A stretch of 64,000 bases of DNA, taken from positions 248,001 through 312,000 of the forward strand of contig JAIQGK010000006.1 of the NCBI GenBank assembly GCA_020072645.1, written 5' to 3'. The stretch's first letter is position 1; each line of letters starts with the position of its first letter. This DNA comes from Terriglobia bacterium. Lineage in GTDB: Bacteria > Acidobacteriota > Terriglobia > Terriglobales > Acidobacteriaceae. The position numbers and the translations under genes are program-made. The notes beneath the pieces are model-generated. The model worked only from the letters and a program-made list of their open reading frames with translations, was not told the origin of the DNA and searched no databases. This document shows, piece by piece, positions 1,298 through 8,859 of this stretch.

Positions 1298-3742
1298 CTA
1301 CTCCCGCAACTCCACTACCGTCGCGCCGGCTCCGCCTTCATTCTGTTGCGGCTCTGCAACTGTCGCCACGTGAGGATGCTTTTGCAGGTATTGACGCAGC
1401 GCTTTCCGTAGAATCCCCATGCCGCTGCCGTGGACGATGCGCACGCGCGTGAGCCCCGCCAAAAATGCGCGGTCGATAAACTTTTCTACCGCGCTGGTGG
1501 CTTCGTCCACATTGCGACCGATGACGTTGAGCTCAGTGGGCGCCCTGGAATCTTCTTTTAACGTTACGGAGATGCCACGCGCTCGGGCCGCCGCGACAGG
1601 ATTTATGGCGCCGCGTGCCGCAGCTCCGCCGGGAGAGAAAACTTCCGCAACATCATGCCGGGGAATCTTCATCTTCATGTTGCCGATTTCGACTTCAAAG
1701 GTGTTCTCATCGAGTTTGCGCTTGATCACGGCGGTGCGGCCAAGGGACTTGAGCTTGACGGTATCGCCTTCAGAGATGTGCTTGACCTCATGGGGACGCG
1801 CGTTGGGATCGCCCTGGTCTGCGCCGGTTTTGTGCGCCACCACGCCGGCGTCAAACTGCTCTTTGAATTCACGGCGCAGCTTGGCGATGCGCTGCTCCGC
1901 CTGCTTGCTGAGCTTTTGCGCGGCGGCGCGGTCCTGCACGGCGCTGACGGCCTCGCGCACCTGGTACTCAAAGTCCTTGATGAGCGATTCCATCTTGCGC
2001 TCAAATTCGCGGACTTTCTGCCGCTGCTCCTGCTGGCCCTCGACTTCAAGGCGCTTCTGCTCGCGGGCCAGGTCCTGCTCGCGCTTTTGCGCGGCTTGGC
2101 GTTCGCGTTCGAGATCGCGCAGCTCAGAGTGCAGACGGTCGAGAAACTTGCTCACGTCCTGCGTCTGCGTGGTTAGGCGTTCACGCGCGGCGTCAGTAAT
2201 CTGGCGATTGAGGCCGAGACGCTGCGCAATGTTGATGCCCGCCGAAGCTCCCGGCACGCCGACGCGCAGCTCATACGTCGGCTGAAGAGTGTTTTCGTCA
2301 AAGCCCACGGCTGCGTTGAGCACGCCCGCGGTGTTGGCGGCATAGACCTTGAGCGAGGTGTGGTGCGTGGAGATCACGCTGAGCGCGCCGCTACGGCGGA
2401 AATGGTCTGCAATGGCCACGGCCAGCGCCGCGCCCTCTTCAGGATCGGTGGCGGAGCCGAGCTCGTCCAGCAGGACAAGCGAATGCGCGGTTGCGGTGCG
2501 CGAGATGAAATCAATGTTGGTGACGTGCGCGGAGAAAGTAGAAAGATTTTGCTCGATCGACTGGTAGTCGCCAATATCGGCAAGCACGGAATCAAACACC
2601 GGAAGGCGCGCCGTGGTGGCGGGTACGGGAACGCCGGCCTGCGCCATGAGCGCCAGCAATCCCAGAGTTTTGAGGCCCACGGTTTTGCCGCCTGTGTTGG
2701 GCCCGCTGATGATGAGCTGGCGATGCGCGCCGTCCATTTCAAGCGTAAGCGGGATAACCTTACCGCCTTTCGCCTTGAGGTTGCGCTCCAGCAGAGGATG
2801 GCGCGCCGCGCGCAGCTCAGTGTAATCTTCCGCCAGCTCTGGACGGACACAATCGTAGTCCACGGCAAAACGCGCCTTGCCGATTTGCAGCTCAACTTCC
2901 GCCATCACGTTGGTGGCGGTAGCAATGGCTTCACTGTGCTCACCCAGGCGCTCCGTCATCTCCTGTAGGATGCGGCGGACCTCAGCCTGCTCTTCTTCCA
3001 GCAGGCGCACAAGGTCGTTGTTCTGCTCAATGGTTTCCAGCGGCTCAATGAACATGGTCTGTCCGCTGGAGCTTGCGCCGTGAACGACGCCATTGACGCG
3101 CTTGCGCTGCTCGGTCTTTACGGGAATGACGAAGCGCTCACCACGGATGGTGACGAGTTCGTCCTGCACGGCGCCGCCTTCTGCCAGCCGCCGCAGATAG
3201 CCGCGCAGCGATTCCTGGATGGCGCGCTTTTGTTTCTCCACGTCACGGCGGATGCGCGTGAGCTCAGCGGAGGCGCGATCATCAAGCGTGCCGTCCGGCT
3301 GGATCTTGTTGCGGAAGTGGCGCAGGAGCAAGGTGAAGTCGGCAATCTGCTGGGTAAGAGCCAGCATGCCGATCCAGTGCGGCTTGACGGCGTCCGGCGG
3401 ATGAAGGGCCATCTCACGCCATTCAGAAGATTTATCCACCAGCAGGACGAGATCGCGAATCTGCTCGATTTCAAGCGTCGCGCCGGGAATGCGCGCCTTG
3501 GCCAGAAGATTGTGCGCATCGAACAGGCCGGTGAATTCGAAGCGGCCGCCGGCGGAGTAAAAGCGGCGTGATTCGTCGGCAAGCTGCTGTTGCTGGTTGA
3601 TCCATGCGCGGTCGAGCGAGGGCTCCAGTTGAGACACCTTGGCCTTGCCCAGCGGCGAGCTGACGTATGCGCCCAGAACGTCACGAAAGTGCGTGAATTC
3701 CAGGACGCGGGCGGAAGAATGCTGGAGCGGCGACGGGACCAT
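1298..3742 (-). CDS. mutS2: MutS2 family ATPase/endonuclease
   Basis: 814 residues, close to the usual MutS2 length. There is no MutS mismatch-recognition domain. An N-terminal core and clamp (about 1-320) lead into the ABC ATPase with Walker A GPNTGGKT at 347-354, then DELGSATDPEEGAAL (Walker B and signature region) and an STHHTSLK switch. A long charged coiled coil follows (about 510-630), then a KOW-like segment, and a C-terminal Smr domain with VRIVHGSGMGILRKAL. MutS2 proteins suppress recombination and in Bacillus subtilis act on collided ribosomes; the Smr domain is the nuclease part. The start is an ATG at 3742. Transcription is convergent with the TPR gene and divergent from treS. No missing motif is evident apart from a variant Smr start (LNVIGRNVDEA instead of LDLRG). 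Confidence 0.95.
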   Translation of the reverse strand: MVPSPLQHSSARVLEFTHFRDVLGAYVSSPLGKAKVSQLEPSLDRAWINQQQQLADESRRFYSAGGRFEFTGLFDAHNLLAKARIPGATLEIEQIRDLVLLVDKSSEWREMALHPPDAVKPHWIGMLALTQQIADFTLLLRHFRNKIQPDGTLDDRASAELTRIRRDVEKQKRAIQESLRGYLRRLAEGGAVQDELVTIRGERFVIPVKTEQRKRVNGVVHGASSSGQTMFIEPLETIEQNNDLVRLLEEEQAEVRRILQEMTERLGEHSEAIATATNVMAEVELQIGKARFAVDYDCVRPELAEDYTELRAARHPLLERNLKAKGGKVIPLTLEMDGAHRQLIISGPNTGGKTVGLKTLGLLALMAQAGVPVPATTARLPVFDSVLADIGDYQSIEQNLSTFSAHVTNIDFISRTATAHSLVLLDELGSATDPEEGAALAVAIADHFRRSGALSVISTHHTSLKVYAANTAGVLNAAVGFDENTLQPTYELRVGVPGASAGINIAQRLGLNRQITDAARERLTTQTQDVSKFLDRLHSELRDLERERQAAQKREQDLAREQKRLEVEGQQEQRQKVREFERKMESLIKDFEYQVREAVSAVQDRAAAQKLSKQAEQRIAKLRREFKEQFDAGVVAHKTGADQGDPNARPHEVKHISEGDTVKLKSLGRTAVIKRKLDENTFEVEIGNMKMKIPRHDVAEVFSPGGAAARGAINPVAAARARGISVTLKEDSRAPTELNVIGRNVDEATSAVEKFIDRAFLAGLTRVRIVHGSGMGILRKALRQYLQKHPHVATVAEPQQNEGGAGATVVELRE

Positions 3743-4018: not shown

Positions 4019-7000
4019 ATGCCGGATTGGTACAAAGACGCAATCATCTACGAAGTTCATGTCAGGGCCTTTTTCGACAGCGTTACCGATGGGATCGGTG
4101 ACTTTGGCGGATTGACCCAGAAGTTGCCCTATTTAGAAGACCTTGGCATTACCGCGATCTGGCTTCTGCCGTTCTGTCCCTCACCTCTTAAGGACGACGG
4201 ATATGACATATCTGATTACGTGGATGTGCACCGTTCTTACGGCTCATTGAAGGACTTTCAGCGCTTCATGCGTGAGGCAAAGCGCCGCGGCCTGAGAGTA
4301 ATTACCGAGCTGGTGCTCAACCATACGTCTGACCAGCATCTCTGGTTTCAGCGTTCAAGGCGTGCGCCCCCGGGCAGCCGCTGGCGGGATTTTTACGTTT
4401 GGAGCGATACCTCGGACAAGTATCGTGACGCGCGCATCATCTTTAAGGACTTTGAAAGCTCCAACTGGACGTGGGACCCGGTCGCCAAGGCCTATTACTG
4501 GCATCGATTCTATTCACACCAGCCGGACCTCAACTGGGAAAATCCAGAGGTCCGCAAGGCCATGTTTGCCGCTATGGATTTCTGGTTCGATCTGGGCGTG
4601 GACGGCCTGCGCCTTGACGCGGTGCCATACCTGTTTGAGCGCGAAGGAACAAACTGTGAAAATCTGCCGGAAACCCACGCCGCTTTAAAAGAGCTGCGCA
4701 AGCATGTGGACGAAAAATACCAAGGCCGCATGTTGCTGGCGGAAGCCAACCAGTGGCCGGAAGATGCTGTCGCGTATTTCGGTAAGGGCGACGAGTGCCA
4801 CATGGCATTTCATTTCCCCATCATGCCACGCCTATTCATGGGCCTGCGCATGGAGGACCGCCACCCTATCACGGAGATCCTGCGCATAACGCCGGCGATT
4901 CCGGAAAATTGCCAATGGGCCATGTTCCTGCGCAACCATGATGAACTTACGCTGGAGATGGTGACGGACGAAGAGCGCGATTACATGTACCGCACCTACG
5001 CACAGGACCGCGGCATGCGGATCAACCTTGGCATTCGCCGGCGGCTTGCGCCGCTGCTGGAAAATGATCGCCGCCGTATTGAACTGATGAACGCGCTCCT
5101 GCTCTCCCTGCCCGGAACCCCAGTCCTGTATTATGGCGACGAAATCGGCATGGGCGACAATATCTATTTGGGTGATCGCAACGGTGTTCGCACGCCGATG
5201 CAATGGAGCCCGGACCGCAATGCCGGTTTCTCCCGCGCCAATCCGCAGAAGCTTTACCTGCCGGTAAACATTGATCCGGAATATCACTACGAAGCGCTCA
5301 ATGTAGAGACGCAGAATAACAACTCACACTCTCTGCTGTGGTGGATGAAGCGAATGATCGCGCAGCGCAAACAGCATCCGGCCTTCGGACGTGGGAAGAT
5401 GGAAATCCTGTTCCCCACCAACCGCAAGATATTGGCTTTTGTGCGTGAGTTTGAGGACGAGAAGATCCTGGTGGTAGCCAATCTTTCGCGCTTTACTCAA
5501 TGCGCGGAACTGGACTTATCCAGGCATCGTGAAGCCGTGCCGGTGGAAGTTTTCGGTCGCAACCGTTTTCCCGCGATCACCGAACAGCCCTATCTGCTTT
5601 CCCTGGGACCACATGCCTTCCAGTGGTTTCATCTGCAGCCACTTGAGCAGAGTCAGGAATCGTTTTCCGTTACGGCGCGAGCGGAAGACATACCTGTACT
5701 TGCAATGAACGCACAGGAACTCTTCAACACGGCCACGCGGAACAATATTGCGAAACTGCTTCCGATGATCCTGCGCAGGCGATCATGGTTCATCAACAAG
5801 CATCGTACGATCCGGCAAGTGAGTATCCATGACGTAATCGCTTTGCCAGAAACCATGGCGCATATTCTGCTGATAAACGTTGAATATACTGATGGAGAAC
5901 CAGAGCAGTTCACCGTTCCGCTTTCGCTCACGACAGGGGAACAGGCCGAAACGATTTTGCGGGAAAAACTCTATACGGTCCTGGCAAAGGTAAAAGGCCT
6001 GCCTGATCCACAGTCCATTCTCTATGGATCGGTCTTTGACCGGCAGTTCAATGACGCATTGCTAAAGGCCATGCTGCGCCGTCGCCGGATCAAGGGAGAA
6101 AAAGGAGACATTGTTGGAACGCATACGCGGGCTTTTCGTGAAGCCTGGGGTCGCGTCCGCTCCAATCTGGAGCCGCAGCCGCAAACGCTGGATGCGCACA
6201 AGATCCAGGTAACGTTGGGACAGGATTTTGTTTTCACCATCTATCGCGAAGTGGAACAGGGGCCGAACCCGGACCGTGAAATTGGGGAGTTCCTGACGAA
6301 CCATACGAACTTTGCTCATATTGCCCGCACACTGGGGGCGATCGAATACCGCGTAAGGCAGGAAGATGAGAGCGAAGAAGTGACAACGCTCGGGACTCTT
6401 ACGGCCTACGTTCGCAATGCAGCAGATGGTTGGACATACACGCTGGACCATCTGGGACTTTTCTTTGAGCGCGCGCTGGCCATTGGCGAAGATGATCCGC
6501 GATTGAAGGAACTGACCTCAGGCACTCCCTTTGCCTTGTCCTCTCAACCGGTCCCGCGCGTCATTACTGAATTGCTGGGAGGCCATGCTGAAACGGCGGT
6601 CCTGTTGGGGCGCTGCACCGCTGAATTGCACGCTGCGCTCAGCAGCCATCCGGAGATGCCGGAATTTGCGCCCGAGCCTTTCACGGAGTTCTATCGTCAC
6701 AGTCTTTATCATGGATTTCTGGCGCAGATGAATAAGTCGCTTGATGCGCTTCGCCAGCAAGTGGAGCATTTGTCCGGTGCGGCGCATGAGGAAGCGCGGG
6801 CCGTGCTGGAGCAACAAGCTGCCCTGGGGGAACGCTTCAACGCCCTTCGAGACATGCGCATTTCTGGGATGAGAATGCGCCATCATGGCGACTATCACCT
6901 GGCAAATGTGCTTTACAGCGGCAGTAATTTCATCATCAAGAATTTTGATGGAGACTATACAAGGCCCATGAGTGAGCGACGCATCAAACGATCGCCCGTT

Positions 7001-7330
7001 AAAGATGTTGCCAGCATGGTCCGCTCACTTCACTATGTGTCGCACGCGGTGCTCTTCAATCATGTTCCCGGAATTGTTCCTACGCAGGATGACTCGCGCC
7101 TGGAACGCTGGGCCAAGGCCTGGTATCAATGGGTAAGTGCGCTGTTCCTGCGGGGATACTTTGAAACCGCCGGCGCCGCTGACTGTTTGCCGCAAACCCA
7201 GCCGGAAATCAAGGTCTTGCTTGATGCCTTCACGCTTGAAAAGGGATTGATGGAAGTCGAGTATGAACTTCGGCACCGGCCGGATTGGGTGCGAATTCCT
7301 CTCCACGGAATTCTGGAACAACTGCAATGA
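4019..7330 (+). CDS. treS: Trehalose synthase fused to a maltokinase-like domain
   Basis: 1103 residues, the length of TreS-maltokinase fusions. Residues 1 to about 550 are a GH13 maltose alpha-D-glucosyltransferase that interconverts maltose and trehalose. Its catalytic residues are intact: nucleophile D200 (DGLRLDAVPYLF), acid/base E242 (LLAEANQWPE) and D308 (RNHDEL). Residues about 560-1100 match the Pep2/Mak kinase, with the HGDYHLANVL loop at 956-965. Two kinase positions look lost: the ATP-binding lysine of the family's LKLFRR strand aligns with T740 (FTIYREVEQG), and the metal-binding aspartate of DFEGEP is N975 (KNFDGD). The domain may therefore be a pseudokinase; this is my alignment from memory. 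The TGA overlaps the malQ ATG (ATGA), implying translational coupling. No GlgE gene is in the window. Confidence 0.93.
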   Translation: MPDWYKDAIIYEVHVRAFFDSVTDGIGDFGGLTQKLPYLEDLGITAIWLLPFCPSPLKDDGYDISDYVDVHRSYGSLKDFQRFMREAKRRGLRVITELVLNHTSDQHLWFQRSRRAPPGSRWRDFYVWSDTSDKYRDARIIFKDFESSNWTWDPVAKAYYWHRFYSHQPDLNWENPEVRKAMFAAMDFWFDLGVDGLRLDAVPYLFEREGTNCENLPETHAALKELRKHVDEKYQGRMLLAEANQWPEDAVAYFGKGDECHMAFHFPIMPRLFMGLRMEDRHPITEILRITPAIPENCQWAMFLRNHDELTLEMVTDEERDYMYRTYAQDRGMRINLGIRRRLAPLLENDRRRIELMNALLLSLPGTPVLYYGDEIGMGDNIYLGDRNGVRTPMQWSPDRNAGFSRANPQKLYLPVNIDPEYHYEALNVETQNNNSHSLLWWMKRMIAQRKQHPAFGRGKMEILFPTNRKILAFVREFEDEKILVVANLSRFTQCAELDLSRHREAVPVEVFGRNRFPAITEQPYLLSLGPHAFQWFHLQPLEQSQESFSVTARAEDIPVLAMNAQELFNTATRNNIAKLLPMILRRRSWFINKHRTIRQVSIHDVIALPETMAHILLINVEYTDGEPEQFTVPLSLTTGEQAETILREKLYTVLAKVKGLPDPQSILYGSVFDRQFNDALLKAMLRRRRIKGEKGDIVGTHTRAFREAWGRVRSNLEPQPQTLDAHKIQVTLGQDFVFTIYREVEQGPNPDREIGEFLTNHTNFAHIARTLGAIEYRVRQEDESEEVTTLGTLTAYVRNAADGWTYTLDHLGLFFERALAIGEDDPRLKELTSGTPFALSSQPVPRVITELLGGHAETAVLLGRCTAELHAALSSHPEMPEFAPEPFTEFYRHSLYHGFLAQMNKSLDALRQQVEHLSGAAHEEARAVLEQQAALGERFNALRDMRISGMRMRHHGDYHLANVLYSGSNFIIKNFDGDYTRPMSERRIKRSPVKDVASMVRSLHYVSHAVLFNHVPGIVPTQDDSRLERWAKAWYQWVSALFLRGYFETAGAADCLPQTQPEIKVLLDAFTLEKGLMEVEYELRHRPDWVRIPLHGILEQLQ

Positions 7331-8859
7331 TATTTCCTCGATCAGCCGGCATACTGCTGCATCCCACGTCCTTGCCTGGCGCTAATGGAATAGGCGAATT
7401 GGGAGCGGAAGCGCTACGTTTTTGCTCGTATCTGCATGATGCAGGCATAAAAATCTGGCAGGTGCTGCCATTGAATCCAACCGGATACGGCGATTCACCT
7501 TATCAAGCGCTTTCGGCATTTGCTGGAAATCCGCTGCTCATCAGCCTGGAAGCGCTGGTTGAAGAGGGATGGCTTGAGAAGGAAGACTTGCAACGATTGC
7601 CGGAGTTTCCCACAGATCGGGTGGATTTCAGCAAAGTGATTCCATGGAAATTCAGTTTGCTGCGAAAAGCGGCTTCTAAGTTTTTCGCATCCGTGAAAAT
7701 CGAAGTCAAAGCTGATTTTGAGAAATTCGTCCAGGAAAACCAGGCCTGGCTGAATGGCTATGCTCTTTTCATGGCTGCCAAAGATGCGCATCAGGGCAAA
7801 GTGTGGACGGAATGGGACCCGGATCTGGCTGCGCGCGAACATTCAGCCATTGCAAAATGGAGAGAAAAGCTCTCATTTGAAATCGCCGCTTACAAGTTCT
7901 GGCAGTTTGAGTTCTTTCGCCAATGGAATGTGGTTCGAGAGAATTGTGCGCGTCTTGGGATTCGCATTATGGGCGATATTCCCATTTATGCTGCGCATGA
8001 TAGCGCTGACGTGTGGGCGCATCCAGAGATGTTCTGGCTGGATGAAAAGGGAAGTCCGCTGAAAGTTTCCGGCGTCCCTCCAGATTACTTCAGCGCCACC
8101 GGACAGCTCTGGGGAAATCCACTGTACCGCTGGGACACGATGAAGAAGGACGGCTACCGCTGGTGGATTGATCGCGTGCGCGCCTCGCTCAAGATGTTTG
8201 ACATAGTGCGGCTTGATCATTTCCGCGGCTTTGAAGCATATTGGGAAATCCCCGCGGGCGAGCCGACAGCGATGCACGGCAAGTGGGTCAAAGGTCCCGG
8301 CGCTGAACTCTTTAAAGTCCTTACGGACAAACTTGGCCCGCTGCCGATTGTCGCCGAGAATCTGGGCGTGATTACGCCGGAAGTGGAAGCCATCCGGAAG
8401 CAATTTGGCTATCCAGGAATGGCGATTCTGCAATTTGCTTTCAGCACTGATCCGCAGGCGCCTACTTTTCGTCCGCACAATTATGAGCAGCAACTTGTGG
8501 CTTATACCGGCGGGCATGACAATGATACCATGTTCGGATGGTGGCGTTCCGGCGTGGCCCAAAGCACGCGTACTCAAGCTGACGTAAGAAGAGAGTATGC
8601 CGATGCACAGAATTACTTCGGCGTCAGCGCAGCCCAATTTAATGAAGAAGTAAACTGGATCTTTATTCGCGAAGTCATGAAGTCCGTGGCAAACACTGTC
8701 CTATTTCCCATGCAGGATGTATTGGGACTTGGCAGTGAAGCGCGCATGAATACCCCTGGCACCCTTGGCGGCAACTGGACGTGGAGGTTATGTCCCGACA
8801 GCCTTCGCGAGGCGGACCAGTGCCGGTTGAAGCTATTCACCGAAATGTACGATCGCTAG
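7327..8859 (+). CDS. malQ: 4-alpha-glucanotransferase (amylomaltase)
   Basis: 510 residues, the short plant DPE1/Thermus type of GH77 enzyme. It transfers glucan segments between maltooligosaccharides and releases glucose. Start: the ATG at 7327 overlaps the treS stop, and the family N-terminus (RSAGILLHPTSLPG) begins there, so an upstream in-frame ATG at 7285 inside treS is rejected. Catalytic residues are visible: nucleophile D297 (IVRLDHFRGF), acid/base E344 (IVAENLGVIT) and D398 (GGHDNDT). Pairing with treS suggests a cytoplasmic maltose/trehalose/glycogen module. The stop lies 11 bp from the convergent phosphopantetheinyl transferase gene, with no obvious terminator between them. Confidence 0.95.
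   Translation: MIFPRSAGILLHPTSLPGANGIGELGAEALRFCSYLHDAGIKIWQVLPLNPTGYGDSPYQALSAFAGNPLLISLEALVEEGWLEKEDLQRLPEFPTDRVDFSKVIPWKFSLLRKAASKFFASVKIEVKADFEKFVQENQAWLNGYALFMAAKDAHQGKVWTEWDPDLAAREHSAIAKWREKLSFEIAAYKFWQFEFFRQWNVVRENCARLGIRIMGDIPIYAAHDSADVWAHPEMFWLDEKGSPLKVSGVPPDYFSATGQLWGNPLYRWDTMKKDGYRWWIDRVRASLKMFDIVRLDHFRGFEAYWEIPAGEPTAMHGKWVKGPGAELFKVLTDKLGPLPIVAENLGVITPEVEAIRKQFGYPGMAILQFAFSTDPQAPTFRPHNYEQQLVAYTGGHDNDTMFGWWRSGVAQSTRTQADVRREYADAQNYFGVSAAQFNEEVNWIFIREVMKSVANTVLFPMQDVLGLGSEARMNTPGTLGGNWTWRLCPDSLREADQCRLKLFTEMYDR

Follow-up and report, generated by a model that had tools for sequence, protein, structure and literature searches.

The fusion gene and its kinase site

The window analysed here is a stretch of 64,000 nucleotides from a soil-dwelling Terriglobia bacterium, positions 248,001 to 312,000 of contig JAIQGK010000006.1 in assembly GCA_020072645.1. 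The genome measures 6.44 Mb and is 99% complete. At 4019..7330 (+) the window carries a gene of 1103 amino acids, in which a trehalose synthase (TreS) is fused to a C-terminal domain related to maltokinase (Mak). The kinase site of this domain is degenerate, and so is that of a whole clade of related fusions, in genomes where no GlgE was found.

The TreS domain (GH13) spans residues 1-545 (4019..5653, +) and matches TIGR02456 over residues 4-540 with 904.3 bits (cut-off 678.35). Its catalytic Asp, Glu and Asp are present as D200 (4616-4618), E242 (4742-4744) and D308 (4940-4942). The earlier note on this DNA had likewise read the TreS catalytic residues as intact, and the TreS part is predicted to retain trehalose-maltose interconversion. 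Among the 22 degenerate rows described below, the three residues are present in 20, 21 and 21, with the remainder lying outside the fetched stretch.

The second half matches TIGR02457, the model for TreS-linked maltokinase, over residues 565-1100. The score is 372.8 bits for the whole protein and 375.2 in the genome scan, against a cut-off of 375.05; under the same model, two fused relatives whose site is intact reach 463 and 502 bits, and four degenerate clade members 364-402. The maltokinase-like domain, with cap, N lobe and C lobe, covers residues ~585-1103 (5771..7327, +). A match to Mak_N_cap at residues 585-644 reaches 21.6 bits, slightly below the cut-off of 22. The kinase part had earlier been placed from 6200 onward; the domain begins farther upstream, near residue 585 (about nucleotide 5771).

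We aligned the window protein to M. vanbaalenii Mak (Mvan; 4u94 sequence), whose numbering is used throughout, and to relatives. Residue roles are those given in PMC4306142. The ATP-binding lysine, Lys149, aligns to T740 (codon ACC, 6236..6238, +). The P-loop, EQSN at residues 134-137 of active Mak, reads D725-A-H-K728 (6191..6202, +), so that Ser136-Asn137 correspond to H727-K728. Where active Mak has DFEGE, the window has N975-F-D-G-D979 (6941..6955, +), and the metal aspartate Asp322 is replaced by N975 (codon AAT, 6941-6943). The catalytic loop is retained as HGDYHLAN, residues 956-963 (6884..6907, +), with H956 to D958 encoded at 6884-6892. On these four points the alignment bears out the earlier note, which had described a kept HGD-x-H-x5-N loop, Thr740, Asn975 and a nucleotide loop that looked absent.

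Two further losses were found: the metal ligand Gln310 is N963 (6905-6907), and Tyr416 of the maltose site is M1078 (7250..7252, +). The other two maltose-site residues, Lys413 (K1075) and Tyr420 (Y1082), are kept, as are Asp305 (D958, the putative base) and Asp343 (D996). Since Lys149, Gln310 and Asp322 are invariant in 87 of 87 Mak domains classed as intact, the losses in the window go beyond chance.

A lysine or aspartate supplied from nearby residues would, by the earlier note, have refuted the pseudokinase reading, and the alignment offers none. K974 lies beside N975, with T, M, S, E or R at this position in the nearest relatives, and D977 occupies the position of Glu324, a residue that takes no part in Mg coordination in Mak (PMC4306142). 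Sequencing error was also ruled out: a second assembly, an Acidobacteriaceae contig from a metagenome-assembled genome (L002, identical to L033), carries the same T/N/N/M set in a Mak domain 95% identical to that of the window.

In M. tuberculosis maltokinase, Asn at the position of Asp322 abolishes activity; changing Ser136 costs 97% of Mak activity and changing the Asn137 equivalent costs all of it, and Tyr416Phe causes a drastic drop that nearly abolishes it (PMC4306142). With these losses combined, maltokinase activity of the window fusion is very unlikely, and we would predict with high confidence that there is none. Some kinases tolerate the loss of the lysine or of the metal aspartate, and an active maltokinase with unusual catalytic residues might still make residual maltose 1-phosphate for some other enzyme. 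We give this next to no credence, since the site has lost Tyr416, Gln310, Asp322, Lys149 and the P-loop at once, in a genome that has neither a GlgE match nor a second TIGR02457 match.

A clade of degenerate fusions under constraint

Relatives were searched in 396 genomes of the phylum, 9 of the genus (3 with the gene) and 398 of the family. The Mak site was scored in 109 genomes of the main set, 22 being degenerate and 87 intact. Rows L001 and L003, which are the window itself, were dropped, L002 was merged with L033 by DNA match and counted once, and G286 enters the GlgE count only, outside the Mak scoring. Two further sets added 19 Mak-scored genomes out of 80, and 10 out of 13 (G038, G602 and G573 were left out), giving 140 scored loci in total (109 + 20 + 11).

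Twenty-one related degenerate fusions form one clade (SH-aLRT 100), spread over nine genus codes of the window's family. Three belong to one genus (the window, G401 and G398), and the other 18 fall across eight further codes. Tyr416 is lost in 21/21, replaced by M, L, I, A, S or Q. Asp322 is lost in 12/21, always to Asn and always together with Gln310 to Asn. Lys149 is lost in only two members, the window and G401. Residues 136 and 137 of the P-loop are highly variable within the clade. The intermediate state is seen in G398, whose Mak domain is 72% identical to that of the window; it keeps Lys149 and Asn137, with the metal-site and Tyr416 losses already present. These graded losses suggest, from the alignment, that the maltose site was lost first and the ATP lysine last. 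Single changes also occur among other rows: the intact-class row G293, with GlgE present, has Tyr416 to His, and Thr stands in place of Ser136 in L009, L016 and L199.

The degenerate domain is not drifting faster than an active one. Its median omega is 0.104 (6 nearest pairs with usable dS) against 0.120 in intact domains (22 pairs), and the Mak/TreS dN ratio is 3.28 (9 pairs) against 3.60 (27 pairs); the difference falls short of significance in both measures. Relaxed decay is unsupported by these values, and the constraint argues for some function. A decaying relic, in which an inert kinase part survives solely because a truncated TreS would fold badly or because function was lost only recently, would agree with the graded loss of active-site residues and with GlgE not being found in the clade. 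We find it very improbable: the frame is open without inner stops in 21/21 members over nine genus codes, W14, R152, D343, R349, W379, E417 and W428 are conserved in all of them, omega is about 0.10, and the dN ratio is no higher than in active fusions.

The earlier note had proposed a structure model as a check. An AlphaFold model built with 54 alignment rows has block-mean pLDDT of 73-97 from residue 571 onward, and Foldseek gives target-normalised TM scores of 0.81-0.87 to solved maltokinases (4u94, 4o7o and 5jy7 chains), so the maltokinase fold is kept in the prediction. With a predicted kinase fold, lost catalytic residues and retention under constraint, the domain would qualify as a pseudokinase.

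GlgE, separate origins and gene neighbourhood

GlgE was searched by its N-terminal family, PF11896. The window genome has 0 matches to it, and no second TIGR02457 match was found there. The search with these models thus turned up neither of the genes that the earlier note had suggested looking for, glgE and a separate mak, and the idea that one of them lies at another place in this genome is rejected on that search. The pseudokinase reading put forward in that note is thus supported by the alignment, by the residue losses and by both absences.

The same absence extends to relatives. PF11896 was not found in 9/9 genomes of the genus, nor in 21/21 clade genomes, 16 of which are at least 90% complete. 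Across the 109 scored genomes, GlgE is absent from 22/22 degenerate ones and present in 81/87 intact ones; a Fisher test gives p 6e-18, which takes no account of relatedness between the genomes and is not treated here as a probability. In 73 of the 81, GlgE and Mak share a strand, with GlgE upstream at a distance of no more than 12 kb.

The six intact genomes without a PF11896 match are accounted for by contig ends or incompleteness. In G476, G598, G588 and G532 the contig extends no more than ~1.1 kb beyond TreS-Mak on the upstream side, in G317 the open reading frame (ORF) reaches the end of a short stretch (950 amino acids; read as a contig end), and G432 is 53% complete with an unfused Mak. 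In the two further sets, other intact-site genomes lack a match: in G723 and G744 Mak lies within ~2.7 kb of the contig start, and G088 is located at a contig end. G602, likewise without a match, is outside the Mak scoring. Overall, 26 degenerate loci were counted among the 140 scored; 24 of them come from genomes in which GlgE was not matched, and 2 sit beside an intact copy. Among the scored loci, every fused and intact TreS-Mak from a genome lacking a GlgE match was at or near a contig end.

Some side observations concern Mak and GlgE themselves. In three genomes of the window's family (L087, L089 and L091; G539, G410 and G473) Mak is a separate ORF of ~545-580 amino acids, and GlgE is present in the genome. 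The loci L185, L186 and L187 (G030, G043 and G068) hold an unfused, intact Mak in mid-contig despite no PF11896 match. Lastly, the GlgE N-terminal family match is split into two pieces ~90-150 bases apart in G225, G313, G585, G595, G603, G610, G623, G640 and G650 (all genus code g9) and in G561 (g2), a pattern that suggests extra sequence inserted into the N domain of GlgE.

Outside the main clade, degenerate sites were also found in three 99% complete genomes without a GlgE match. G394 has Asp322Asn, Tyr416Asp and a P-loop reading EQNL. G193 has Lys149Arg, Gln310Arg, Tyr416Arg and Tyr420Arg, with Asp322 kept. In G175, HGD has become HGN, with Asp322Gly, Tyr416Arg and Tyr420Asp.

The tree including the extra rows requires 4 changes between intact and degenerate, and starred branches force no fewer than 3 of these. 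A common origin for the whole set of 26 degenerate rows can be rejected (p-AU 5.2e-6). These are quick trees, in which G193 is a long branch. A separate origin for the G193 copy was not shown, since joining it to the main clade gives the better tree (p-AU 0.685), so three origins are counted and not four. We therefore claim at least three: one for the main clade, possibly including G193, one for genus code g13 (G394, G478) and one for G175/G379.

Two of these groups hold pairs of note. L192 (G175) and L194 (G379), which lie outside the family of the window, form one degenerate TreS-Mak pair, and G175 has lost even the catalytic base. G478 holds GlgE, an intact-site Mak copy and a degenerate TreS-Mak paralogue in one genome (L167, L168). 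The nearest kin of its degenerate copy is G394, found with the degenerate type alone, and a duplication-first route to the pseudokinase is possible in G478.

As an outside control, 8 of 183 matching plasmid records were taken, each with an alphaproteobacterial fusion. All 8 have an intact site, one with Thr for Ser136, and GlgE adjoins the fusion in all four records that have gene annotation.

In the window, the next gene downstream is MalQ, a 4-alpha-glucanotransferase of family GH77 (7327..8859, +), whose start overlaps the TreS-Mak stop (ATGA). MalQ occupies this place in 12/21 clade members. The window genome also has TreY, TreZ and two OtsA-family matches, and can therefore probably make trehalose. 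Upstream, a MutS2/Smr gene at 1298-3742 (-) adjoins a repeat-rich ORF at 47-1264 that by eye resembles tetratricopeptide repeats. A scan for promoters and terminators gave fewer sites than shuffled sequence did.

Interpretation and comparison with known systems

We regard it as likely that the fusion is a trehalose synthase with a C-terminal pseudokinase that was disarmed after the loss of GlgE and has persisted in a structural or regulatory role. In active fusions, TreS equilibrates trehalose and maltose, and the ATP-driven kinase pulls the flux to maltose 1-phosphate (PMC8084333), which is the donor for GlgE and toxic on accumulation (PMC7935935; PMC4663749). GlgE would have been lost first in the lineage, leaving an active Mak as a source of toxic, unusable maltose 1-phosphate. 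Mak loss would be expected from there, because an active Mak is harmful once GlgE is gone. The domain would then have been disabled at the maltose site (Tyr416), followed by the P-loop and the metal site (Gln310 and Asp322, both to Asn). The ATP lysine would be the latest loss, seen in the window and its sister species.

The remaining fold would be unable to hold MgATP and maltose for phosphoryl transfer, and therefore no maltose 1-phosphate would be made. Without the ATP-driven pull, the flux would be set by the trehalose-maltose equilibrium and by a user of maltose, probably MalQ. We propose a shunt from trehalose to maltose to MalQ, with the Mak domain as scaffold or regulator, and put the coupling of MalQ to the fusion at about even.

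A non-catalytic role of the domain, such as holding or tuning the TreS assembly, is probable. In the complex from M. smegmatis, some elements of the Mak ATP site also belong to the interface with TreS (PMC6509496), so the pocket could plausibly influence TreS. A more specific idea is that the pseudo-Mak is a sensor for a nucleotide, sugar phosphate or maltodextrin, evolved at least three times and gating TreS. We consider this rather doubtful; if true, an irreversible glycogen-making step was turned into a reversible, regulated shunt between trehalose and MalQ.

Several observations weigh against the pseudokinase explanation. Asp305 and Asp343 are kept in 21/21 clade members and Lys149 in 19/21, so the domain could still bind nucleotide to some extent or act on a different substrate. 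Nine members retain Asp322, eight of them with Gln310, and in these nine the damage consists of the maltose site plus, in most, the P-loop; L078 retains Ser136, Asn137, Lys149, Gln310 and Asp322. Active-site columns are not lost preferentially to a significant degree (8/20 conserved columns against 11/56 elsewhere, Fisher p 0.13). The AlphaFold model is of poor quality in its TreS part, the probable reason being that some 44 residues at the start are missing from the other rows. On the TreS side of the known interface the R534 equivalent is kept, and the R312 and P503 equivalents are not; these two are also missing in most intact relatives. MalQ was not seen adjoining in 9/21 members, with the contig ending shortly downstream in G557 and G579.

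The link to GlgE has its own exceptions. Five genomes with an unfused, intact Mak (G030, G043, G068, G056 and G079) have no PF11896 match and retain K149, D305, Q310, D322 and Y416, so GlgE absence alone is no predictor of loss. Degenerate copies also occur in the GlgE-bearing G478 and G379, each beside an intact-site second copy.

The retained residues, together with the purifying selection, would suit a neofunctionalised kinase, one that binds nucleotide and phosphorylates a different sugar through D958 and altered metal ligands. Glucosamine kinase (6hwj, a distant match) gives an example of a change of substrate within the same fold. We judge such a kinase improbable here: the window has changes at Lys149, at Asp322, at Gln310 and in the P-loop, Asn at the Asp322 position abolishes the M. 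tuberculosis enzyme (PMC4306142), and the wide variation at 136 and 137 within the clade is unlike a re-tuned active site.

The pseudokinase explanation bears on annotation. A TreS-Mak gene is easily labelled as a maltokinase and taken as a sign of the GlgE pathway, and for the degenerate clade that label would be wrong. Being clade-wide and recurrent, the feature goes beyond what the window sequence alone could show. It links the absence of GlgE to a repeated disarming of its supplier, which matches the toxicity of maltose 1-phosphate. Furthermore, the graded intermediates, with maltose site, metal site and ATP lysine lost in turn, offer a way to separate a non-catalytic role of Mak in TreS from catalysis.

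Among the closest known systems are the bifunctional TreS-Mak/TreS-Pep2 fusions that serve the GlgE pathway in Estrella lausannensis and Pseudomonas aeruginosa (PA2152), with the same two domains in the same order as in the window. In those fusions both reactions are active (PMC7935935, PMC8084333), whereas the window has lost the kinase site. P. aeruginosa has glgE and glgB beside the fusion; the window has MalQ beside the gene, and GlgE was not found in its genome. The mycobacterial Mak/Pep2 proteins (4u94, 4o7o, 5jy7) are matched in fold as given above and in sequence with E 2.5e-34 to 4o7o. Identity in the structural alignment is 22-23%, and the window lacks their Lys149, Ser136, Asn137, Gln310, Asp322 and Tyr416.

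In the open full-text literature, which is what was covered, we found no paper joining pseudokinase and maltokinase, and the excerpts of one review on TreS/maltokinase fusions say nothing about an inactive kinase part. A parallel is found in the bacterial spore kinases (BSKs), protein-kinase-like kin of small-molecule kinases, for which repeated loss of catalysis with the fold kept has been predicted (PMC2860764). BSKs are spore proteins unfused to a sugar isomerase, and the predicted pseudokinases among them have lost the HxD aspartate, while the window keeps D958. Pseudokinases are thus already known among related bacterial kinases.

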